A program made the position numbers and the translations under genes. Below, piece after piece: positions 25,154 through 37,502 of a stretch of 64,000 bases of DNA (its first letter is position 1; each line of letters begins with the position of its first letter). This DNA is from Comamonadaceae bacterium (GTDB lineage: Bacteria; Pseudomonadota; Gammaproteobacteria; Burkholderiales; Burkholderiaceae_C). Location: contig JAIXPL010000031.1 in NCBI GenBank assembly GCA_027486255.1, positions 1 through 64,000 on the forward strand. The letters are read 5' to 3'. The notes under the pieces were generated by a model that did no database searches, was not told the DNA's origin, and worked only from the letters and a program-made list of their open reading frames with translations.

Positions 25154-25311
25154 GCTTTCGAGTGCCAGGACCGGTTTTTCAGTGAAAACCCCAGGCGGGT
25201 GGCACGCTGAACCCTGGGTGCTTCAGTTAGCATCCTCCGGCGTGACAGCGGAGCCTTGTCGTGGCGCAAGCCCACGTGCCGCTGATCCGACCACACAGAA
25301 AGACCCTGCTC

Positions 25312-25770
25312 ATGAGCAACCTCTCCCTCACAATCAACGGAGCACCCACCAAGGTGGACGTGGATCCGTCCACGCCCTTGGTTTGGCTGCTGCGCGAGCA
25401 CCTCAAGCTCACTGGCACCAAGTTTGGCTGCGGCGTCGCCCAATGCGGCGCCTGCACGGTGCATGTCAATGGCGAAGCCACCCGCTCCTGCGTGACGCCC
25501 GTCTCGGCCGTGGCCGGCAAGGCGATCACCACCATCGAGGGCCTGTCGCCCGATGGCAGCCACAAGCTGCAAAAAGCCTGGATCGCTGAGCAGGTGCCGC
25601 AGTGCGGCTACTGCCAGTCGGGCCAGATCATGCAGGCCGCCACGCTGCTGGCCAAGAACAAAAAACCCACCCGCGAGCAGATCGTGCAGCACATGAACGG
25701 CAACATCTGCCGCTGCGGCACCTACCAGCGCATCGTCAAGGCCGTCCAACGCGCCGCCAAGGAGGCCTGA
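25312..25770 (+). CDS. Molybdenum hydroxylase 2Fe-2S subunit (IorA-like), copy 1
   Basis: 152 residues from ATG 25312. The N-terminal plant-type ferredoxin domain binds one cluster through [20 protein letters not shown] plus a later Cys (RSC). The C-terminal helical domain binds the second cluster through [12 protein letters not shown] and NICRCGTY. This is the small subunit of the xanthine-oxidase family, closest in layout to isoquinoline 1-oxidoreductase IorA. It carries electrons from the molybdenum site of the next gene to an external acceptor; no FAD subunit is encoded here. Confidence 0.92.
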
Positions 25771-25772
25771 AC

Positions 25773-28016
25773 ATGAATGCACGCACCGACTCCCAGCTCC
25801 TGGCCGGCGGCCTGAGCCGCCGCGGTTTCCTGGCCGCCACCGGCGGGCTGAGCTTTTCCGTCGCGCTGGGCGCAGGCCTGGCCGCAGCCACGTCCGACGC
25901 CAGCGCCCAGGCCGGCGATGCGGGCCTGAAGGCCAACGTCTGGGTCACCATCGGCACCGACGACTCGGTGGTGGTGATGACCCCCACCGGCGAAATGGGC
26001 CAAGGCACCCTGACGGCGCTGCCCTTGATCCTGGCCGAGGAACTGGACGCCGATTGGTCCAAGGTCCGCGTCGAATACGCCCCGCCCAACCCGCGCGTCT
26101 ATGGCAACCCGCATCCGCTGCTCAACGGCGGCCAGGCTTCGCTGGCCAGCATTGCCATCCCTGGCTACTTCATGCCGCTGCGCATGGCCGGTGCCCAGGC
26201 CCGCCGCGTGCTGCTTGATGCAGCTGCCGCGCGCTGGGGTGTGCCTGTGGCCGAGCTCTCCACCGATTCGGGCGTGGTGATCCATGCAGGCACCGGCCGC
26301 CGTCTGCGCTATGGCGAGATCGCCGCCTTCGCCACCGTGCCGGCCGAGCTTCCGAAGATCACCCCCGCCGACCTCAAGAAGCCTGAGCAGTTCAAGCTGA
26401 TCGGCCGTGCTGACATCGTCCGCACGGATGTCAAGTCCAAGGTGACCGGCCAGGCGCAGTTCGGCATTGACGTGCGCGTGCCCGACATGGTCTACGCCAC
26501 GGTGCTGGAGTCGCCCATGGACGGCGCCCGCCCGGACTTCGTCAACACCGCCGAGGCCATGGCGGTGCCCGGTGTGATCCAGGTCATGCCCATGCCCTTT
26601 GGTGTGGCGGTGCTGGCCAACACGGTCGAGGCCACGCGCATTGCGCGCAATGTGCTCAAGGCCAAGGTCACCTGGAACACTTCTGAGACCCGCCACAACG
26701 CGGTCAACTTCGATTCGGACAAGGCCAAGGAAGAGTACGCCCGCAACGGCCGATCGGCCGAAGCCAAGCCCATGACCGCCTACAAAAAGGGCGAGGCCGA
26801 TCAGGCCCTGGCCTCGGCCGCGCGGGTGATTGAGGCCACCTTCTGGTCGGAGCACACCTACCACGCGCAGATGGAGCCCATGAACTGCGTGGCCCGCGTG
26901 GCCGCCGACGGCCAGTCGGCCGAGATCTGGGTGGGCACGCAAGCCCCCGTGCTGGTTGCCATGGCCGCCTCCAATGTGCTCAAGACCACGCCGGACAAGA
27001 TCCGTCTGCACCAGGTGCTGCTCGGCGGTGGCTATGGCCGCCGCATCACGCCGGACATCGTGGCGCAGACCGTGGCCATTGCCAACGCCAGCAAGCGCAC
27101 CGTCAAGCTCATCCTCACCCGCGAGGACGATATGGTGGCTGCGCGCCCACGGCCCATGACCCACCACATCATGCGTGCCGGCCTGGACGCCAATGGCAAG
27201 CTGGTGGGATGGAAGCACCGCATCGTGGCCGAGAACGTGGATGCCGTGGCTGCTCCCCCGCGCTTTGCCGCCACCGGCGGCAAGGACTACATCGGCTGGC
27301 AAGGCTCGGACATGCCGCACTACAGCATCCCGAACTGGCAGTCCGAGGGTGTGCGTGAAATGCGTGGCATGCGCGTGCATGCGTTCCGCGGCATTGGTGC
27401 GGGTTACAACAAGTTCGCCATTGAAAGCTTCCTGGACGAAATCGCGCAGGCCCGCAAGATGGATCCGCTGGCCATGCGCCTGGAGCTGACGCAGGATGAT
27501 GCCCGCGCCCGCGCCGTGCTCGAGGCCGTGGCCGAGATGTCGGACTGGAAGCGCAAGCGCCGTGGCCGTGCCCTGGGTATCGCCATGGCCGACTACCACG
27601 GCACCTTGGCTGCCGGCGTGGCCGAGGTGTCGGTGGACCGCAAGAGCGGCAAGATCAAGGTGCATAACTACTGGACCTCGGTCGATGCCGGCCTGGTGAT
27701 CCAGCCCGAGAGCGTGCTCGGCCAGCTCGAAGGTGGCGCGGTCTATGGCCTGTCGGTGGCCTTGCTCGAAGAGCTGACCATCAAAGCCGGCGCGGTGCAG
27801 CAGAGCAACTTCAATGACTATCCGGTGCTGCGCATGGCCGATATGCCTGAGGTCCACACCCGAATCGTGAAGTCCAACGCACCGCCCACCGGTATGGGTG
27901 AGGCCGGCGTGGGGCCCGTGGCTCCGGCCATTGCCAACGCCGTGGCGCAACTCACCGGCAAACGCCTGCGTGAGCTGCCCATGTCGCCTGAACGCGTGAA
28001 AAAAGCGCTGGCTTGA
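25773..28016 (+). CDS. Molybdenum hydroxylase large subunit (IorB-like), copy 1
   Basis: 747 residues starting 2 bases after the small subunit. A twin-arginine signal (SRRGFLAATGG, R16-R17) targets the folded complex to the periplasm. The body has the molybdopterin-cytosine-dinucleotide segments GEMGQGTLTALPLILAEELD, LLGGGYGRR and MRGMRVHAFRGIGAGYNKFA. The catalytic glutamate is E710 in PTGMGEAGVGP. Such enzymes hydroxylate aldehydes or N-heterocycles with water as oxygen donor. A strong terminator follows, so the pair is its own operon. Substrate is unknown. Confidence 0.92.
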   Translation: MNARTDSQLLAGGLSRRGFLAATGGLSFSVALGAGLAAATSDASAQAGDAGLKANVWVTIGTDDSVVVMTPTGEMGQGTLTALPLILAEELDADWSKVRVEYAPPNPRVYGNPHPLLNGGQASLASIAIPGYFMPLRMAGAQARRVLLDAAAARWGVPVAELSTDSGVVIHAGTGRRLRYGEIAAFATVPAELPKITPADLKKPEQFKLIGRADIVRTDVKSKVTGQAQFGIDVRVPDMVYATVLESPMDGARPDFVNTAEAMAVPGVIQVMPMPFGVAVLANTVEATRIARNVLKAKVTWNTSETRHNAVNFDSDKAKEEYARNGRSAEAKPMTAYKKGEADQALASAARVIEATFWSEHTYHAQMEPMNCVARVAADGQSAEIWVGTQAPVLVAMAASNVLKTTPDKIRLHQVLLGGGYGRRITPDIVAQTVAIANASKRTVKLILTREDDMVAARPRPMTHHIMRAGLDANGKLVGWKHRIVAENVDAVAAPPRFAATGGKDYIGWQGSDMPHYSIPNWQSEGVREMRGMRVHAFRGIGAGYNKFAIESFLDEIAQARKMDPLAMRLELTQDDARARAVLEAVAEMSDWKRKRRGRALGIAMADYHGTLAAGVAEVSVDRKSGKIKVHNYWTSVDAGLVIQPESVLGQLEGGAVYGLSVALLEELTIKAGAVQQSNFNDYPVLRMADMPEVHTRIVKSNAPPTGMGEAGVGPVAPAIANAVAQLTGKRLRELPMSPERVKKALA

Positions 28017-29763: not shown

Positions 29764-30723
29764 ATGGCTGCACCCTACAACCTCGCCCGCTTTGACCTGG
29801 TCTCGATCCGCCTGGCGGTCGACTGCGCGCGCTTGGGCAGCCTCAGCGCTGCGGCCCTGCAGTCGCACCTGGCGCTGGCGGCCGCCAGCCGCCGTCTGCG
29901 CGAACTTGAAAAGGCGCTGGGTGATCCCTTGTTTGAACGCCACGGCCGCGGTGTGCGTCCCACGGCGGCCGGCCATGTGTTTGTCCGCTGTGGCCTGACC
30001 CTGCTGCAAAACCTCGAGCAGATGGCCGGTGAACTCAGCGACCTGCGCCAGGGCGTGGCCCGTCACATCCGCGTGTGCGCCAACACCGCCGCCATCAACC
30101 AGTTTCTGCCGCCTCTGCTGGCGCGCTATGCGAGCGAGCAGCAGCAGGTGCGCGTCGACCTGGAGGAGCAACTCTCCAGCGGTGTGGTCACCGCCCTGAA
30201 CGAGGGCCGCGCGGACATCGGTGTATTTGCCGAAGGCGGGGACACGCGCGGGCTGGACTGCCAGTTGTTCCGGCACGACGAACTGGTGCTGGTGCTGCCG
30301 GCGCGCCACCGGCTGGTGGGCCGTCGGCCGTTGGCCTTCAGCGACGCCCTGGACGAGGACTGGATCACCCTGAGCGACGGCGCGGCATTGCTGCTGCGGC
30401 AGCAGCAAACCGCCCTGGCCGCCGGCAAGCCGCTGCGCATTCGCATGCAGGTGCGCAGCTTCGACGCCGTCTGCCACCTGGTGGCCTCCGGGCTGGGCAT
30501 CGCCGTGTTGCCTAAGAACGCGGTGCTGCCCATCGTGCGCTCCATGGACCTGCGCTGGCGCCCGCTGGCCGATGCCTGGGCCTCACGCAGCCTGCTGGCG
30601 GCCACCCGCAGCGGCCCCCAGGACCCCATGGTGCAAGCGCTGCTGGCCTTCCTGGTGGCTCCGTCGCCAAGCCCTGACGAGCCTACGCAAAATACGAAAG
30701 CTCGCCGCTTGAAAGAGCAATAG
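29764..30723 (+). CDS. LysR-family transcriptional regulator
   Basis: 319 residues from ATG 29764. The N-terminal winged HTH (about 12-70) shows GSLSAAALQSHLALAAASRR and GDPLFERHGRGVRPTAAGH, then the periplasmic-binding-protein-like effector domain. It is the first gene of a same-strand series through 37502; the CoA-transferase starts 34 bases after its stop. That is unusual, since LysR genes are mostly divergent from their targets. It probably responds to the substrate of this cluster and may be autoregulated. A possible TACAGT -10 box lies 10 bases before the ATG. Confidence 0.92.
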   Translation: MAAPYNLARFDLVSIRLAVDCARLGSLSAAALQSHLALAAASRRLRELEKALGDPLFERHGRGVRPTAAGHVFVRCGLTLLQNLEQMAGELSDLRQGVARHIRVCANTAAINQFLPPLLARYASEQQQVRVDLEEQLSSGVVTALNEGRADIGVFAEGGDTRGLDCQLFRHDELVLVLPARHRLVGRRPLAFSDALDEDWITLSDGAALLLRQQQTALAAGKPLRIRMQVRSFDAVCHLVASGLGIAVLPKNAVLPIVRSMDLRWRPLADAWASRSLLAATRSGPQDPMVQALLAFLVAPSPSPDEPTQNTKARRLKEQ

Positions 30724-30757
30724 ACCAAGCAGGGCAGGGCTTGCACACTGCGGCCCC

Positions 30758-31975
30758 ATGACTTCCTTGCCTACTGCCGGCGCGCTGACCGGGCTCAAGG
30801 TGCTCGAACTCGGGCAGCTGATTGCGGGCCCCTTCGCGGCCAAGACCTTGGCCGACTTTGGCGCCGACGTCATCAAGATCGAGCCGCCTGGCGCGGGTGA
30901 CCCCTTGCGCAACTGGCGCCTGCTGAAAAACGGCACCTCCGTGTGGTGGCAGGTGCAGTCGCGCAACAAACGCTCCGTGGCCGTGGACCTGCGCCAGCCT
31001 GAGGGGCAAGCCATCGTGCGCCAGCTCGCCGGCGAGGTCGACGTGCTGATCGAAAATTTCCGTCCTGGCGCGCTTGAGGGCTGGGGCCTGTCGCCCGACT
31101 CACTGCTGGAGGACAATCCGCGCCTGATCGTGCTGCGCGTCAGCGGCTACGGGCAGACCGGGCCCTACCGCGACCGCCCCGGCTTTGGTGTGGTCGGCGA
31201 GGCCATGAGCGGCCTGCGCCACCTCACCGCCGAGCCGGGCCGCGTGCCCGTGCGCGTGGGTGTGAGCATCGGTGACACGCTGGCTGCGCTGCACGGGGTC
31301 ATCGGCATCCTGATGGCCTTGCAAGAGCGTCACAGCTCGGGCAAGGGGCAGGTGATCGATGTCGCCCTCTACGAGGCGGTGTTCAACTGCATGGAAAGTC
31401 TGTTGCCCGAATACAGCGCCTTCGGTGCCGTGCGCGGGCCCGCTGGCAGTGCGCTGCCGGGTATTGCGCCGAGCAATGCCTATATGTGCGCCGACGGCGG
31501 CTACGCCCTGATCGCCGGCAACGGCGACAGCATCTTCAAGCGGCTCATGACCATCATCGGCCGAGATGACCTGCGCGACGATCCGACCCTGGCGGACAAC
31601 GCCGGGCGTGTACAGCGCGTGAGCGAACTCGACTCCGCGATCGGGCAATGGACGCGCCGGCACACCGTCGATGAGGTGCTGGCTGCGCTCGAGGGCGCCA
31701 GTGTGCCCGCCGGCCGAATCTACACCGTGGCCGACATCGCGGCCGACCCACATTACGCGGCGCGCGACATGCTGCAGCAGGTCACGCTGGACGACGGCGA
31801 GACGCTCACTGTGCCGGGTATCGTGCCCAAGCTCTCGCGCACGCCTGGCATTCACCACCGCAATGCGCCCCGCGTGGGTCAGGACACGCTAGAGGTGCTG
31901 CGCCAGATCGGCCTCACCCAAGAGCAGATCGCGCAATTGAAGGCGGGCGGTATCGTCGCAGAAAGCCAGTCATGA
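30758..31975 (+). CDS. CaiB/BaiF (class III) CoA-transferase
   Basis: 405 residues. It has LKVLELGQLIAGPFAAKTLA and DFGADVIKIEPPGAGDPLR at the N-terminus, ENFRPGALEGWGL mid-protein, and the catalytic aspartate at 173 (VGVSIGDTLAALHG). Class III enzymes move CoA between two carboxylic acids through an aspartyl-CoA intermediate. The stop overlaps the HMG-CoA-lyase-like gene by four bases, so the product acyl-CoA is probably cleaved at once. In Chloroflexus an analogous CoA-transferase plus HMGL-type lyase pair processes (R)-citramalate; a similar pairing is a reasonable hypothesis here. Confidence 0.93.
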   Translation: MTSLPTAGALTGLKVLELGQLIAGPFAAKTLADFGADVIKIEPPGAGDPLRNWRLLKNGTSVWWQVQSRNKRSVAVDLRQPEGQAIVRQLAGEVDVLIENFRPGALEGWGLSPDSLLEDNPRLIVLRVSGYGQTGPYRDRPGFGVVGEAMSGLRHLTAEPGRVPVRVGVSIGDTLAALHGVIGILMALQERHSSGKGQVIDVALYEAVFNCMESLLPEYSAFGAVRGPAGSALPGIAPSNAYMCADGGYALIAGNGDSIFKRLMTIIGRDDLRDDPTLADNAGRVQRVSELDSAIGQWTRRHTVDEVLAALEGASVPAGRIYTVADIAADPHYAARDMLQQVTLDDGETLTVPGIVPKLSRTPGIHHRNAPRVGQDTLEVLRQIGLTQEQIAQLKAGGIVAESQS

Positions 31976-32919
31976 CACAGCGCATCCAGTTCAATGAAGT
32001 CGTCACCCGTGACGGCTTTCAGATCGAGCCGCAGTTCATCGCCACCGACGCCAAGGTCGCCTTGGTCGATGCCTTGTCGGACTGCGGTTACGCCAAGATC
32101 GAGGTGACCTCCTTCGTCTCGCCCAAGGCGATCCCGCAAACGCGTGATGCCGAAGAGGTGATGGGCCGCATCCGCCGCGTGCCTGGCGTGGAGTACACGG
32201 TGCTCGTGCCCAACCTTCGCGGCGCCGAGCGCGCGCTGGAGTCGCGCGCCGACGAACTGAACCTGGTGATGTCGGTCTCCGAGACGCACAACCTGGCCAA
32301 TCTGCGCATGCCCCGGGCCAAGAGCTTGGAAGCCCTGTCGGAGGTGATCCGTGCGGTCGATGGCCGCACCCCCATCAATGTGTCGCTCTCCACCAGCTTC
32401 GGCTGCCCCATGGAGGGCGAGGTGGCGCCCGCGCAGGTGCTGGACTGGGCCCAGCGCTTTGCCGACCTGGGGGTGCGCGGCCTGACGATCTGCGACACCA
32501 CCGGCATGGCCGACCCCGCCCAGGTGGCGCGGCTGTGCGAGGCCTTGCGCCAGAAGCTGGACCACCTGCAGCTGACCCTGCACTTTCACAACACCCGCGG
32601 CATGGGCCTGGCCAACGTGCTGGCGGCCGTGCAGGCCGGCATCACCCGCTTTGACGGCTCGCTCGGCGGTCTGGGCGGCTGCCCCTACGCCCCGGGCGCC
32701 AGCGGCAACATCTGCAGCGAGGACGCTCTGCACATGCTCGAGGCCATGGGCCTGGAGACGGGCGTCGACCTGCCCCGCCTCTTGCAGGTCGCCCGCGCCT
32801 TGCCGGACATCGTGGGCCACGCGGTGCCCGGCCAGGTGGCCAAGGCCGGCCGCAGTTGCGATCTGCATCCGGTGCCCGCCGCCGTCACCGAACTGCAGCA
32901 ACAACTCCAGCGGGCCTGA
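31972..32919 (+). CDS. HMG-CoA lyase family enzyme (possible citramalyl-CoA lyase)
   Basis: 315 residues, a DRE-TIM barrel. The metal/catalytic start is VTRDGFQIE (R13, D14), the metal histidines are H204 and H206 (LTLHFHNTRG), and the active-site cysteine is C237 in the signature SLGGLGGCPYAPGASGN. Members split 3-hydroxy-3-methyl-acyl-CoAs such as HMG-CoA (to acetoacetate and acetyl-CoA) or (R)-citramalyl-CoA (to pyruvate and acetyl-CoA). The substrate cannot be fixed by sequence, but the overlapping CoA-transferase and following maleate-isomerase-like gene point to a C4-C6 dicarboxylate rather than leucine catabolism. Confidence 0.92.
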   Translation: MTQRIQFNEVVTRDGFQIEPQFIATDAKVALVDALSDCGYAKIEVTSFVSPKAIPQTRDAEEVMGRIRRVPGVEYTVLVPNLRGAERALESRADELNLVMSVSETHNLANLRMPRAKSLEALSEVIRAVDGRTPINVSLSTSFGCPMEGEVAPAQVLDWAQRFADLGVRGLTICDTTGMADPAQVARLCEALRQKLDHLQLTLHFHNTRGMGLANVLAAVQAGITRFDGSLGGLGGCPYAPGASGNICSEDALHMLEAMGLETGVDLPRLLQVARALPDIVGHAVPGQVAKAGRSCDLHPVPAAVTELQQQLQRA

Positions 32920-32974
32920 GGGCCTGAACCTTTCGCCCCTTCTTTTTTGCACTGACCTCGGAATCCCTGACTCC

Positions 32975-33727
32975 ATGACCCGTTCCTACCGCGTCGGACT
33001 CATCGTCCCCAGCTCCAACACCACGATGGAGACTGAGATCCCGGCCATGCTGCGCGCCCGCGAACAGATTCTGCCTGAGCGCTTTACTTTTCACTCCAGC
33101 CGCATGCGCATGAAGGAAGTCACCAAAGAGCAGCTGGCCGCCATGGACCGCGACTCCGACCGCTGCGCCCTGGAGCTCTCAGACGCCCGCATGGACGTCA
33201 TGGGCTACGCCTGCCTGGTGGCCATCATGAGCATGGGCCTGGGCTATCACCGCGAATCGCAACAGCGCCTGGCGCAGGTGGCTGCCGGCAATGCGGCCGC
33301 GGCGCCCGTGACCACCAGCGCCGGTGCGCTGGTCGAGGGTCTGCAGGCGCTCGGGGCCAAGCGCGTAGCGATCATCGCGCCCTACATGAAGCCCCTGACC
33401 CGGATGGTGATCGACTACATCCAGCACGAGGGCATCGAGGTGGTCGACAGCCTGTCCCTGGAGATTCACGATAACTTGGCCGTGGGGGCCCGCGACCCGC
33501 GTGCACCGGCCGAATTGTGGAAGCAGCTGAACCTGAGCGGCGTCGACGCCATCGTCGCGTCGGCCTGCGTGCAGATGCCCTCGCTGGCCGCCGTGCCCCT
33601 GATTGAGCAGGCCAGCGGCCTGCCCGTGGTCTCAAGCGCCGTGTGCACCACCTGGTCGCTGCTAAAGCACCTGGGCCTGGAAAGGCGCGTGCCTGACGCC
33701 GGCACCCTGCTGTCAGGCCGTTTCTGA
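32975..33727 (+). CDS. maiA: Maleate cis-trans isomerase family protein
   Basis: 250 residues of the Asp/Glu-racemase superfamily. It follows maleate isomerase closely: VGLIVPSSNTTMETEIPAML, FHSSRMRMKEVTKE, the first catalytic cysteine C80 (MGYACLVAIMSMGLGYH) and the second C198 (ASACVQMPSL). It converts maleate to fumarate without reduction, for example in nicotinate catabolism. Methylated analogues (citraconate to mesaconate) are conceivable given the neighbouring genes. ATG 32975 lies 55 bases after the lyase stop. The gene symbol is by family resemblance. Confidence 0.87.
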   Translation: MTRSYRVGLIVPSSNTTMETEIPAMLRAREQILPERFTFHSSRMRMKEVTKEQLAAMDRDSDRCALELSDARMDVMGYACLVAIMSMGLGYHRESQQRLAQVAAGNAAAAPVTTSAGALVEGLQALGAKRVAIIAPYMKPLTRMVIDYIQHEGIEVVDSLSLEIHDNLAVGARDPRAPAELWKQLNLSGVDAIVASACVQMPSLAAVPLIEQASGLPVVSSAVCTTWSLLKHLGLERRVPDAGTLLSGRF

Positions 33728-33754
33728 CCCGCTAATTTACCCCTGGAGATTTTC

Positions 33755-34729
33755 ATGACCCGACGCCCCTTCCTGCGAAGCGCCCTGCTGGCCGCCGCCA
33801 CGGCCGCCTGCGGCACCCTGGCCCTGGCCCAGGCCTTTCCCAACAAACCCATCACCTTGATCGTGCCCAACCCGCCCGGTGGCGTGGTCGACACCTCGGC
33901 GCGTCTGTTGGCTGACCCGCTGGCCAGAATCCTCAATGCCACGGTCGTCATTGACAACCGCGCCGGCGGCAGTGGCAACGTGGCCTACGGTCATGTGGCG
34001 CGCTCACCCGCTGACGGCTATACCCTGCTGACCTCTTACTCCGCGTACCACGTGGGTAATCCCTCCCTGTCGCCCAGGCTGCCCTGGAGCCAGAAGGAGC
34101 TCGCACCCGTGGCCCTGATCACCGCGGCGACCAATGTGATTGCCGCGCATCCTTCGGTGCCAGCCAACACGCTGGCTGAATTCATCGATTATGTGAAGAA
34201 GAACCCCGGCCGCTTGAGCTATGCTTCGCAAGGTAATGGATCGCTCTCGCACATCGGCACCGAGATGTTCAAAAGCCAGACCGGCACCAGCATGGTCCAC
34301 ATTCCTTATCGTGGCTCGGGCCCGGCCATTCAAGACGTGCTCAGCGGCCAGGTGCAGGTGTTCATGACCACGCCGCCGTCTGTGATGCAGCACGTGCTCA
34401 GTGGCAAGCTCAAGGCCTTTGCCGTCACGGGAAAAACCCGCCATCCGGGCCTGCCCAACGTACCCACCACCACCGAGGCCGGCCTCAAGGGCTTTGAGTT
34501 GGAAGCCTGGGTGGGCATCTTCGCGCCGGCGGGCACGCCTGCTGACGTGATCACCAAACTGACTGCCAGCATCAAGCAGTCCCTCGAGCAACCAGACACC
34601 AAGACCCGTGCGGCGACCGCCGGCGTCGAACTGCGCTATCTGCCACCGGAGGCCCTGGACGCCCTGGTCAAGCGCGAGACCGAGTATTGGGCCAAGACGA
34701 TCAAGGCGGCCGGCATCACTGCCGACTAA
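33755..34729 (+). CDS. Bug/TctC-type periplasmic binding protein
   Basis: 324 residues with an export signal beginning MTRRPFLRSALLAAATAACG and ending near ALAQA. The mature part begins FPNKPITLIVPNPPGGVVDT, the Bug family start, then DNRAGGSGNVAYGHVARSPA and MVHIPYRGSGPAIQDVLSGQ. Bug proteins bind carboxylates or aromatic acids for tripartite tricarboxylate transport or for sensing. No TctA/TctB membrane genes are nearby, so it is an orphan, as is common in Burkholderiales. It likely binds the substrate of this cluster. Confidence 0.93.
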   Translation: MTRRPFLRSALLAAATAACGTLALAQAFPNKPITLIVPNPPGGVVDTSARLLADPLARILNATVVIDNRAGGSGNVAYGHVARSPADGYTLLTSYSAYHVGNPSLSPRLPWSQKELAPVALITAATNVIAAHPSVPANTLAEFIDYVKKNPGRLSYASQGNGSLSHIGTEMFKSQTGTSMVHIPYRGSGPAIQDVLSGQVQVFMTTPPSVMQHVLSGKLKAFAVTGKTRHPGLPNVPTTTEAGLKGFELEAWVGIFAPAGTPADVITKLTASIKQSLEQPDTKTRAATAGVELRYLPPEALDALVKRETEYWAKTIKAAGITAD

Positions 34730-34780
34730 ACTGAATCGTCCGCACCTTACAACCACCCAGCACCCATAAGGAGACAAGAC

Positions 34781-35242
34781 ATGCCGAAGTACACCCTGAA
34801 TGTCAACGGAAAGCGGCGCAGCGTCGACGCCGATGCCGACACGCCGCTGCTGTATGTGCTGCGCGACAACCTGGAGCTCAATGGCCCCAAGTTTGGTTGC
34901 GGCATGGGCCAGTGCGGTGCCTGCACCGTCCATGTGAACGGTGAGGCCACGCGCTCATGCCTGCTGCCCGTGAGCAGCCTGGCTGGCAAGAGCGTCACCA
35001 CGCTCGAGGGCCTGGGCAGCTCCACGATACCGAGCAAGTTGCAGCAGGCCTTCATCGACGAACAGGCTGTGCAGTGCGGCTACTGCTGCAGCGGCATGAT
35101 CATGACCTCGGCAGCGCTGCTCAAGAAGAACCCCAAGCCCAGCGAGGCGCAGATCAAGGAAGCTCTGGCTGGCAACCTGTGCCGCTGCGGTACCCATCAA
35201 CGCATCTGTAACGCCGTCAAGCGTGCAGCGACCACCATCTGA
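34781..35242 (+). CDS. Molybdenum hydroxylase 2Fe-2S subunit (IorA-like), copy 2
   Basis: 153 residues, preceded by AAGGAG. The first cluster is bound by [20 protein letters not shown] and the following RSC. The second is bound by CGYCCSGMIMTS (with one extra Cys) and NLCRCGTHQ. The overall layout equals the copy at 25312-25770, with about half of residues shared by eye. It is followed by its large subunit after 13 bases and preceded by the Bug gene, so it belongs to the catabolic series started by the LysR gene. Confidence 0.92.
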   Translation: MPKYTLNVNGKRRSVDADADTPLLYVLRDNLELNGPKFGCGMGQCGACTVHVNGEATRSCLLPVSSLAGKSVTTLEGLGSSTIPSKLQQAFIDEQAVQCGYCCSGMIMTSAALLKKNPKPSEAQIKEALAGNLCRCGTHQRICNAVKRAATTI

Positions 35243-35255
35243 AGGGAATAACATC

Positions 35256-37502
35256 ATGAATGCTCCCGACAACTTTCTCTCCCGCCGCAAGCTCCTCCAA
35301 GCCGGCGCCGCTGCCCTGGTGGTCGGTTTCAGTGCCGATGCCACCCTGGCCAAGACCGCTGCGCCCCTCTTGTCCCCCGCCAAGTCGGTGGCCAAGGACG
35401 TGGTCGATTCCTTCTTGGTCATGCACGCCGACGGCAAAGTCACGGTTTACGTGGGCAAGGTCGACCTGGGCACCGGCACCAAGACCGCACTGGCTCAAAT
35501 TGCCGCCGAAGAACTCGATGTGCCCTTCAACTCCATCACCATGGTGATGGGCGACACCGCCACCACCCCTGACCAGTGGCTCACGGGCGCCAACATCACC
35601 ATCGCCCAGGGCGGCGGCGAGTTGCGCCGCGCTTGCGCCACGGCGCGCGCTGCGTTGGTGGCACGTGCCGCTCAGCGACTGGGCGTGCCGGCGGCCGATC
35701 TGGCGGTCTCCGGCGGCGTGGTGCGCGTCAAGGCAGACCCCAGCAAATCGGTCTCGTACAGCCAGCTGATGCAAGGCGGCGCCTTCGACCTGAAGGTCGA
35801 TCCCAAGGCGGCGCTCAAGCCCGCTGCCGAATACAAAGTGGTGGGCACCTCGGTGCCCCGCGTGGACATCCCTGAAAAAGTCTCGGGTGAATTCATCTAC
35901 GCGCATGATTTCCGCATGCCCGGCATGTTGCATGCCCGGGTGGTGCGGTCTGATGACCTGGGCGCCACCATCGTCTCGGTGGACGACAGCGCGGCCCGCA
36001 AGGTCAGCGGCTTTGTGCGCACCGTGCGCAAGGACAACTTCCTGGCGGTGGTCTCGCGCACCGAGTGGGGTGCAGTCAAGGCTGCGCGCGCGCTCAAGGT
36101 GCAATGGTCCAAAGGTACGGGCCTGCCTGACCAAGCCAGCGTGTTCGACTACTGGCGCAAGCAGCCGATTGCCAAGGAAGAGTCCACCCAAAAGGTGGGC
36201 GACGCGCCGGCCGCCATCGCCGCAGCGCCGCGCAAGATCAAGGCCAGCTACGAGTTCGCCGTGCAAACGCACGCGTCGCTCGGCCCCTCCTGCTCGGTGG
36301 CCGACTACCAGGGCGGCAAGCTCGTGGTGTGGTCAGCCTCGCAGGCCACCCACTCCATGCAGACCGAGCTGGCGGGCGTGACGGGTGTGAAAGCCGAGGA
36401 CATTCGCGTGGTCTACCTCGACGGCTCCGGTTGCTACGGCCGCAACGGCCACGAAGACGCCTCGGCCGACGCCGCGCTCATCTCGGTGATGATCGGCAAG
36501 CCCGTGCGCGTGCAGTGGATGCGCGCTGACGAAACCGCCCGTGCGCCCAAGAGCCCACCGCGCGCCATCGACATGGAAGCCGGTTTCGACGCCAACGGCA
36601 AGTTGGTGGCCTGGTCGGCTGACTTCCACATTGCGCTGAACCACATCGCGGCCTTCAAGCCGCTGGACTTCCCGCTGCTGGCGGCCACCGACATCGGTCA
36701 GCCCAAGCCCGGCAACTGGGTGGGCTTTTTGTTCCAGAACTCGGCAGCGCCCTACCAGCTGCCGAACATCCGGGTCAACACCCGCCACGTGGCACAGGCC
36801 TTCTTCCGCTCGGCCCACCTGCGCAGCCCTGGTCGTATCGAGAACAGCTTTGCCAACGAGTCCTTCATGGACGAACTGGCCGCTGAAGCCAAGGTCGATC
36901 CGGCCGAGTTCCGCCTGCAGCACATGAGCGACCCGCGCGCCGTGGCGGTGATGCGCGGCGCCATGAAGCTGGCCAACTGGCAAAGCCGCGCCGGGCTCAG
37001 CCCCGACGCCGGCAAAGGCACCGTCAGCAAGGGCCGGGGCATCTCCTACGTCCGCTACAACAACGCCACCACTTATGTGGCGGCGATTGCAGAGGTGGAA
37101 GTCAATCGCCAAACCGGCAAGGTGCTGGTCACCCGCGTGTGCGTGAGCCATGACTGCGGGCAGATCGTCAACCCGGACGGCCTGGCCAACCAGATCGAAG
37201 GCGGTGTCATCCAGACCGTCAGCCGCACGCTGATGGAAGAGGTGAACTGGGACCGCAACAAGGTCACGAGTGTGGACTGGGTCAGCTACCCGATCCTGCG
37301 CTTCCCGGACGCACCGAAAGTGGAGGTGGACATGATCAACCGTCCCGGTGAAGTGGCCTGGGGTGCGGGTGAACCCACACCCACGGCCATTCCGGCGGCG
37401 ATTGCCAACGCCATCTATGACGCCACCGGGGCGCGTCTGCGCAGCATCCCGATCACCCCTGAAAAGGTGAAGGCGGCCATCGCCACCGTGCGCACGGCCT
37501 GA
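35256..37502 (+). CDS. Molybdenum hydroxylase large subunit (IorB-like), copy 2
   Basis: 748 residues from ATG 35256, with AAGGGA upstream. A twin-arginine-type N-terminus (LSRRKLLQAGAAAL, R10-R11) suggests periplasmic export. Molybdopterin segments include GKVDLGTGTKTALAQIAAEE, GSGCYGRNGHEDASADAALI and QAFFRSAHLRSPGRIENSFA. The catalytic glutamate is E706 in VAWGAGEPTPTAIP. No FAD subunit is present, so electrons probably go to a cytochrome. It hydroxylates an unknown heterocycle or aldehyde; it is the last gene of the same-strand series. Confidence 0.92.
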   Translation: MNAPDNFLSRRKLLQAGAAALVVGFSADATLAKTAAPLLSPAKSVAKDVVDSFLVMHADGKVTVYVGKVDLGTGTKTALAQIAAEELDVPFNSITMVMGDTATTPDQWLTGANITIAQGGGELRRACATARAALVARAAQRLGVPAADLAVSGGVVRVKADPSKSVSYSQLMQGGAFDLKVDPKAALKPAAEYKVVGTSVPRVDIPEKVSGEFIYAHDFRMPGMLHARVVRSDDLGATIVSVDDSAARKVSGFVRTVRKDNFLAVVSRTEWGAVKAARALKVQWSKGTGLPDQASVFDYWRKQPIAKEESTQKVGDAPAAIAAAPRKIKASYEFAVQTHASLGPSCSVADYQGGKLVVWSASQATHSMQTELAGVTGVKAEDIRVVYLDGSGCYGRNGHEDASADAALISVMIGKPVRVQWMRADETARAPKSPPRAIDMEAGFDANGKLVAWSADFHIALNHIAAFKPLDFPLLAATDIGQPKPGNWVGFLFQNSAAPYQLPNIRVNTRHVAQAFFRSAHLRSPGRIENSFANESFMDELAAEAKVDPAEFRLQHMSDPRAVAVMRGAMKLANWQSRAGLSPDAGKGTVSKGRGISYVRYNNATTYVAAIAEVEVNRQTGKVLVTRVCVSHDCGQIVNPDGLANQIEGGVIQTVSRTLMEEVNWDRNKVTSVDWVSYPILRFPDAPKVEVDMINRPGEVAWGAGEPTPTAIPAAIANAIYDATGARLRSIPITPEKVKAAIATVRTA

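Follow-up and report, generated by a model that had tools for sequence, protein, structure and literature searches.

Gene content of the locus

We analysed a stretch of 64,000 nucleotides from contig JAIXPL010000031.1 of a Comamonadaceae bacterium (GCA_027486255.1), hereafter the window, and focus on seven plus-strand genes at 29764–37502 that pair a coenzyme A (CoA)-transferase and a lyase with a maleate isomerase, a binding protein and a molybdenum hydroxylase. The source genome measures 2.66 Mb on 85 contigs and is 90% complete. The run begins with a LysR-type regulator (29764–30723, start at 29764; Pfam HTH_1 and LysR_substrate), followed by a CaiB/BaiF family III CoA-transferase (30758–31975; PF02515, 422.5 bits), proposed here to be a succinyl-CoA:(R)-2-alkylmalate CoA-transferase, and by a lyase of the HMGL family (31972–32919; PF00682; PRK05692, 329.8 bits), proposed to be of the (R)-citramalyl-CoA type. 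Next lie a maleate cis-trans isomerase (MI; 32975–33727) of the arylmalonate decarboxylase/maleate isomerase type, a Bug/TctC periplasmic solute-binding protein (33755–34729; PF03401, 238 bits), the 2Fe-2S subunit of a molybdenum (Mo) hydroxylase (34781–35242; PF01799 and PF00111) and its Mo-cofactor subunit (35256–37502; MoCoBD_1/2), which is aldehyde dehydrogenase-like and carries a Tat-type signal (RR at residues 10–11, judged by eye).

An earlier note, made from the sequence alone, had named these families and a four-base overlap of the transferase and lyase genes; profile scans with Pfam and NCBIfam bear out the former and the coordinates the latter. The catalytic residues it listed were all located intact, namely D173 of the transferase, R13, H204, H206 and C237 of the lyase (where D14 is present as well), the two catalytic cysteines C80 and C198 of MI, and E706 of the Mo subunit within the motif WGAGEP. 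Consecutive genes are spaced by 34, −4, 55, 27, 51 and 13 bases. A promoter scan of both strands gave 0 sites against 0.6 expected by chance, whilst the two plus-strand terminator-like sites both fall within the Mo gene and the intergenic gaps hold none. The gene combination is intact and recurrent, and no description of it was found in the open-licence literature among the matches listed.

The transferase and lyase form a widespread unit

Of 399 Burkholderiales genomes sampled, 52 contain an HMGL relative (E ≤ 1e-105, own genome included), some of them about 2 Mb in size, and within the genus this applies to 47 of 87 genomes (own genome included, E ≤ 1e-90). Loci were fetched from 40 of the 51 other matching Burkholderiales genomes, and in 37 of these 40 CaiB lay in the same stretch as HMGL. 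Moreover, a LysR gene of the same type (60–68% identity) precedes CaiB-HMGL in 29/37 same-genus loci. CaiB-HMGL is a widespread Burkholderiales unit, and we know of no function assigned to it.

In Chloroflexus, a family III succinyl-CoA:(R)-citramalate CoA-transferase adjoins an HMGL-family (R)-citramalyl-CoA lyase. The window likewise holds an adjacent family III transferase, with its catalytic Asp, and an HMGL-family lyase with R, D, H, H and C intact. The likeness is one of family and adjacency only, and the window pair differs in standing under a LysR regulator together with Bug, MI and Mo subunits. The EC/KEGG entries EC 2.8.3.20 and EC 4.1.3.46 are given in the available part of PMC8307300. 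Judged by neighbouring genes in related bacteria (see below), the pair is best read as probably cleaving a methyl-branched hydroxy-diacid, with (R)-citramalate ahead of itatartarate and 3-hydroxy-3-methylglutarate (HMG).

The window lyase matched 6nds (E 1.2e-104), and the PDB relatives of the transferase include the succinate-hydroxymethylglutarate CoA-transferase 9br7 (E 2.6e-61). This latter resemblance, together with a lyase score above the NCBIfam cut-off for the HMG-CoA lyase subfamily (329.8 vs 246 bits), would suit a pair that degrades HMG by a succinyl-CoA:HMG CoA-transferase and an HMG-CoA lyase. We nevertheless hold this to be quite unlikely, as it leaves both MI and the LeuC-LeuD genes that neighbour related pairs (see below) unexplained, and as residues conserved in the clade of the window lyase differ from those of a second lyase of the same genome, on contig C45. 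The clade comprises 56 rows; R112 is kept in 53/56, and the residues that are conserved in at least 53/56 members but replaced in the C45 copy include R112, H106, N107, M100, N136, S138 and R209. The HMGL tree places the window lyase together with those of loci L206 and L207 (98/96), far from the two own-genome lyases included, on C26 and C45.

The C45 lyase also bears on leucine catabolism. It scores 433 bits against PRK05692, compared with 330 for the window lyase and a cut-off of 246 bits, and it adjoins biotin carboxylase- and carboxyltransferase-type genes, both below their equivalog cut-offs, so that 'methylcrotonyl' is our own assignment. The window lyase shares fold family and metal/catalytic residues with the leucine-pathway enzyme but is only 38% identical to the C45 copy, and the carboxylase-gene context of a leucine-pathway lyase is that of the C45 copy and not of the window copy, which has CaiB instead. 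Because the better-scoring HMG-CoA lyase sits beside carboxylase-type genes on C45, leucine catabolism is unlikely as the main role of the window lyase.

Two further arrangements of such lyases were seen. Another CaiB-HMGL pair of the own genome (L233, C26:8500–25500) has a lyase 43% identical to that of the window and, by eye, an FAD-monooxygenase-like gene nearby. A Shinella plasmid (L239) and a Ponticoccus plasmid (L243) are alike in carrying an HMGL-type lyase in a stretch that lacks an annotated CaiB; next to it, in divergent orientation, are genes for an aldehyde dehydrogenase and an iron alcohol dehydrogenase as well as GntR and TRAP genes.

Hydratase genes beside the lyase

LeuCD enzymes hydrate cis-unsaturated diacids such as isopropylmaleate and citraconate. 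Genes for such an enzyme adjoin the pair in three loci: LysR-CaiB-HMGL-LeuC-LeuD-Bug on plasmid pBB2 of Cupriavidus necator N-1 (L236), CaiB-HMGL-LeuC-LeuD with overlapping HMGL and LeuC in genome G006 of the same genus (L222), and CaiB-HMGL-LeuC-LeuD next to a divergent Bug-isomerase pair in Massilia (L077). Family scans confirmed LeuC at each of these loci and, for G006, LeuD too. With LeuC-LeuD beside CaiB-HMGL, a chain can be drawn that would lead from a cis-diacid to an (R)-2-alkylmalate, its CoA ester and finally acetyl-CoA plus a keto acid. These neighbours may supply the hydratase lacking from the scheme of the earlier note, and they lend indirect support to activity of the pair with (R)-citramalate and (R)-citramalyl-CoA. 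In the window, MI sits where LeuCD stands in these units; a single LeuC match was found in the own genome, on contig C62.

The LeuC of G006 looks like a specialised paralogue, because it is only 61–64% identical to the LeuC of five other genomes of the genus, which share 77–96% among themselves; it is the single LeuC found in that genome, which is 82% complete. Plasmid matches to HMGL were inspected in 16 of 39 records, and LeuC-LeuD occurred in 1/16, six of these stretches being unannotated and read by BLAST only.

A VOC protein beside the lyase

A different gene, for a VOC-family protein of about 130 residues, follows HMGL in 18/46 other same-genus loci. Its matches are glyoxalase domain-containing protein 5 and, with a score almost as good, STM3117 of Salmonella, which we take to lie in the Salmonella itaconate operon. 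The own genome holds a 77% identical VOC gene in a cluster (L326, C34:1–14913) of acyl-CoA dehydrogenase, MmgE/PrpD, FAS1-like dehydratase, CaiB, Bug and VOC genes, on the opposite strand to the adjoining MmgE/PrpD, acyl-CoA dehydrogenase, FAS1-like dehydratase and CaiB genes. In gene content this cluster resembles the itaconate/methylsuccinate set of Pseudomonas (PA0878-0883), as far as that set is laid out in the available part of PMC9875883. The same part gives PA0880, a protein of 127 residues from the Pseudomonas itaconate set, as a 2-hydroxyparaconate lactonase.

Some units also carry genes that would suit hydroxypyruvate formed from itatartaryl-CoA. Genes of the 2-hydroxyacid dehydrogenase type, 61–79% identical to that of L245, occur in L160, L170, L242, L249 and L278, SMP-30-type genes in L242 and L245, an annotated glycerate kinase in L242 and a MOFRL/DUF4147 gene in L158. 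The lyase unit might accordingly serve 2-hydroxyparaconate and itatartarate, the VOC protein acting as lactonase, CaiB forming itatartaryl-CoA and HMGL splitting it to acetyl-CoA and hydroxypyruvate on the way to glycerate. In favour are the frequency of the VOC gene after HMGL, its resemblances, the itaconate-like cluster on C34 and these accessory genes, but VOC and reductase genes are both absent from the window unit and MI is left unexplained. Furthermore, in the other Gammaproteobacteria no itaconate-type neighbours of the VOC gene were recognised (12 inspected of 24 genomes matching), and across the class-wide VOC search such a context was recognised only for the own-genome copy. We therefore regard this role as unlikely for the window unit. 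For the VOC-linked units it is a competing reading, and it hints that lyases of this clade may accept 2-substituted malyl-CoA esters as a class.

The isomerase is most likely a maleate enzyme

In the PDB, MI matched the maleate cis-trans isomerase 4fq7 (E 4.9e-102) and, at 1e-59, the putative maleate isomerase 2xec. We aligned 100 MI sequences, that of the window included, drawn from NicX-, gentisate-, Bug- and CaiB-linked loci. N15, C80, Y137, N167 and C198 were invariant in 100/100, the Asn and Tyr residues presumably having active-site roles, and the motifs PSSN, CLVAIM, PY and CVQM around the active site varied in few rows. Two catalytic cysteines with conserved Asn and Tyr are the pattern of maleate isomerases within the Asp/Glu racemase-like family. 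Because the active site is the same as in NicX-type- and gentisate-type-linked isomerases, the window MI most likely acts on maleate, yielding fumarate, and need not act on a branched acid. The earlier note had allowed for either maleate/fumarate or citraconate/mesaconate; the first is favoured by the invariant residues and the 4fq7 match, and an MI retuned for citraconate was rejected, there being no active-site change among the aligned sequences. We take 4fq7 to be the maleate isomerase of the nicotine pathway of Pseudomonas putida S16. The window MI is like it in family and active-site residues but has no linkage to 2,5-dihydroxypyridine genes, and is paired instead with Bug and CaiB-HMGL.

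The neighbours of MI were surveyed at 80 loci, the best 80 of at least 572 relatives, with labels assigned by eye; 3/80 had no chosen isomerase open reading frame (ORF) and were not evaluated. Within 7 kb of MI, a Bug gene was present at 37/80, a gentisate dioxygenase-type gene at 13/80, a TRAP large-permease gene at 9/80 and NicX/D/F-type genes at 2/80, whilst 8/80 had none of the labelled kinds. Profile scans back the labels for a gentisate dioxygenase-type example (below the equivalog cut-off) and a malonyl-CoA synthase example. We infer that MI is used wherever maleate arises, most simply as regulator, binding protein and isomerase for imported maleate.

The gentisate- and NicX-linked relatives recall the proposal of the earlier note that a hydroxylase begins the attack on an N-heterocycle, which would make the unit the last part of an aromatic or N-heterocycle route opened by the Mo enzyme, and in L207 the unit is adjoined by genes that resemble, by eye, a kynurenine pathway. 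We find this very doubtful. Ring-cleavage genes do occur in the own genome outside the window, but its NicX-type cluster has a separate MI and its gentisate operon has a GST-type isomerase; moreover, inspection by eye revealed neither gentisate nor NicX-type genes in the stretches of L044, L046, L058, L088, L206 or L207. The NicX-type cluster (L027, C71:11500–31000) contains a second MI (64–65%) with genes for a 2,5-dihydroxypyridine dioxygenase (profile scan), an isochorismatase-type protein and an alpha/beta hydrolase, as well as a Rieske oxygenase, an amidohydrolase and, on the opposite strand, a three-subunit Mo hydroxylase. Genes for 2,5-dihydroxypyridine dioxygenase, deformylase and maleamate amidase are absent from the seven window genes and were found on C71, and an N-heterocycle or nicotinate start for the window unit was rejected. 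Given the C71 cluster with its own MI, this part of the earlier scheme is not supported, whereas action of CaiB and HMGL on a branched dicarboxyl-CoA gains from the LeuC-LeuD neighbours and the improbable leucine role. The own gentisate-type operon, on C21, has no MI match, and because its GST-type isomerase is present it need not make maleate; gentisate is thus an unlikely maleate source in this genome.

Two other settings of MI deserve mention. In L213 (636–9401), MI lies near gentisate dioxygenase-type and FAH-type genes and a 3-hydroxybenzoate 6-monooxygenase, with no GST isomerase seen by eye, and L070, L076, L081, L084, L087, L097, L101, L105, L114, L121 and L122 have MI near gentisate dioxygenase-type and FAH-type genes plus a nitrilase-type gene. 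The arrangement suggests that gentisate is broken down here by direct hydrolysis, giving maleate and from it fumarate. In Marinobacter L099 (7435–9744), MI lies near a family-tested malonyl-CoA synthase-type gene and TRAP transporter genes, and L098, L100, L104, L119 and L120, labelled by eye, share this context, an unusual coupling of malonate and maleate use.

Linkage of isomerase, binding protein and molybdenum subunits with the lyase

CaiB and HMGL shared the fetched stretch with MI at 6/80 MI loci, from Polaromonas CG9_12, Massilia, Rubrivivax, Hydrogenophaga, a Comamonadaceae metagenome-assembled genome (MAG) and a Caulobacterales MAG. The gene orders differ: the Rubrivivax locus (L088) has all seven kinds of gene in another order, and the Caulobacterales locus (L115) reads CaiB-HMGL-MFS transporter-isomerase, with Mo and FeS genes unmatched there. 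On an HMGL tree of 55 rows, from which two outside lyases and one duplicate had been removed, MI linkage calls for 6 changes, each a gain or a loss, and 6 are imposed by well-supported branches. When the MI labels were shuffled, 125 of 500 shuffles were as low as observed. The label is scattered over the tree and not clustered, as expected for repeated events but also for noise. By the count of changes, the MI-lyase pairing was gained or lost several times. The MI-linked rows come from the MI-centred scan and so inform on independence, not on frequency.

Within the genus, the lyase occurs in 24/33 genomes with MI and 22/53 without (one-sided Fisher p 0.004), and in 15/19 genomes with an MI of at least 79% identity compared with 31/67 others (one-sided p 0.011); the own genome was excluded from these statistics, and kinship and completeness are uncorrected. 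A Bug protein at least 58% identical to that of the window was found in 40 other rows of a Bug tree, all of which adjoin MI except L206 and L207; six duplicate loci were dropped, and most loci had been fetched for MI, which biases the tree toward it. Among HMGL-centred loci, just three had such a Bug, namely L206, L207 and L210, of which L210 also has MI. L206 and L207 have their FeS and Mo genes in a single run together with CaiB-HMGL-Bug, as do L044, L046 and L058 with isomerase-Bug.

The best PDB match of the Mo subunit was 8gy3, the large subunit of an aldehyde dehydrogenase (E 8.9e-64). Having the 2Fe-2S subunit apart from a Tat-type Mo subunit, as in the window, is the arrangement of periplasmic aldehyde dehydrogenase or IorB-type Mo hydroxylases, some of which have a cytochrome c partner nearby. 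No CxxCH motif of a cytochrome c was present in the Mo subunit or in ORFs of at least 80 residues starting at 22–42 kb. Judged by its partners Bug, MI and CaiB-HMGL, the Mo enzyme may act on an aliphatic diacid or on the corresponding aldehyde, and oxidation of the aldehyde to the acid ahead of uptake would fit.

A proposed route for maleate and a branched analogue

We give a probability of about 0.48, close to an even chance, to the reading that the seven genes form a single LysR-controlled operon for maleate plus a branched counterpart, for instance citraconate/(R)-citramalate. Acting in the periplasm, the Tat-type Mo enzyme would oxidise a precursor aldehyde to give the acid, which is the weakest step, and Bug would bind a small cis-configured or branched dicarboxylic acid for uptake, the TctAB membrane parts being assumed to lie elsewhere. 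MI would then convert maleate to fumarate for the tricarboxylic acid cycle, a step with good backing from homology. Citraconate would be hydrated to (R)-citramalate by a LeuCD-type enzyme, here that of C62 LeuC, CaiB would transfer CoA to a 2-alkylmalate, most likely (R)-citramalate, and the HMGL-family lyase, going by family chemistry and neighbours, would cleave the ester to acetyl-CoA and pyruvate.

Several observations weigh against this operon. There is no hydratase within the window unit, and LeuC was present in just 3/108 HMGL loci examined (from three different genera, L048 and L210 being the same place) and in 1/46 other same-genus HMGL loci. The active site of MI has no change suited to a methyl group in the 100 aligned sequences. 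MI was absent from all 40 HMGL loci fetched across the order, which makes it an add-on to the lyase unit. In the genus, presence of a Mo gene of at least 68% identity is not tied to the lyase (5/9 genomes, p 0.59) and follows MI weakly (4/9 genomes, p 0.10), and many contigs end near the genes compared. Lastly, the VOC neighbours suggest another substrate for many CaiB-HMGL units.

The lyase of the Ict-Ich-Ccl set of Pseudomonas, a cluster for itaconate and (S)-citramalate, belongs to the CitE-like family. In the available parts of PMC9875883 and PMC12290011, this set likewise proceeds by CoA activation of a branched C5 diacid, from which the lyase then releases acetyl-CoA and pyruvate; it acts on (S)-citramalyl-CoA, unlike the lyase proposed here. 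As far as the available part of PMC9875883 goes, the Pseudomonas cluster for branched short-chain diacids supported no growth on citraconate or (R)-citramalate, and wild-type P. putida KT2440 used neither acid. Should the proposed operon prove correct, it would fill a gap in the bacterial use of these two acids, name a substrate for many pairs of CoA-transferase and 'hydroxymethylglutaryl-CoA lyase' annotated by family alone, and offer parts for the upcycling of branched diacids.

A wider and more tentative idea, which we think rather improbable, is that LysR-CaiB-HMGL is a modular R-branch for 2-substituted malates that complements the S-branch of Ict-Ich-Ccl. The slot after the lyase would hold the feeding gene: LeuCD for citraconate, a VOC lactonase and hydroxypyruvate-reducing enzymes for 2-hydroxyparaconate/itatartarate, or MI, Bug and a periplasmic Mo aldehyde oxidoreductase where oxidised organic matter delivers citraconate and maleate jointly, be it as acids or as semialdehydes. 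Such a branch would account for the spread of the unit across Burkholderiales, including the genomes of about 2 Mb. An atmospheric origin of maleate and methylmaleate is an idea only.

Surroundings of the run

By eye, a pyrE-like gene was recognised upstream of the run and, downstream, a minus-strand gene followed by a gatB-like gene. A few genes upstream, at 25261–28016 on the plus strand, the window contains a second pair of 2Fe-2S and Mo subunits, which also has an RR motif.

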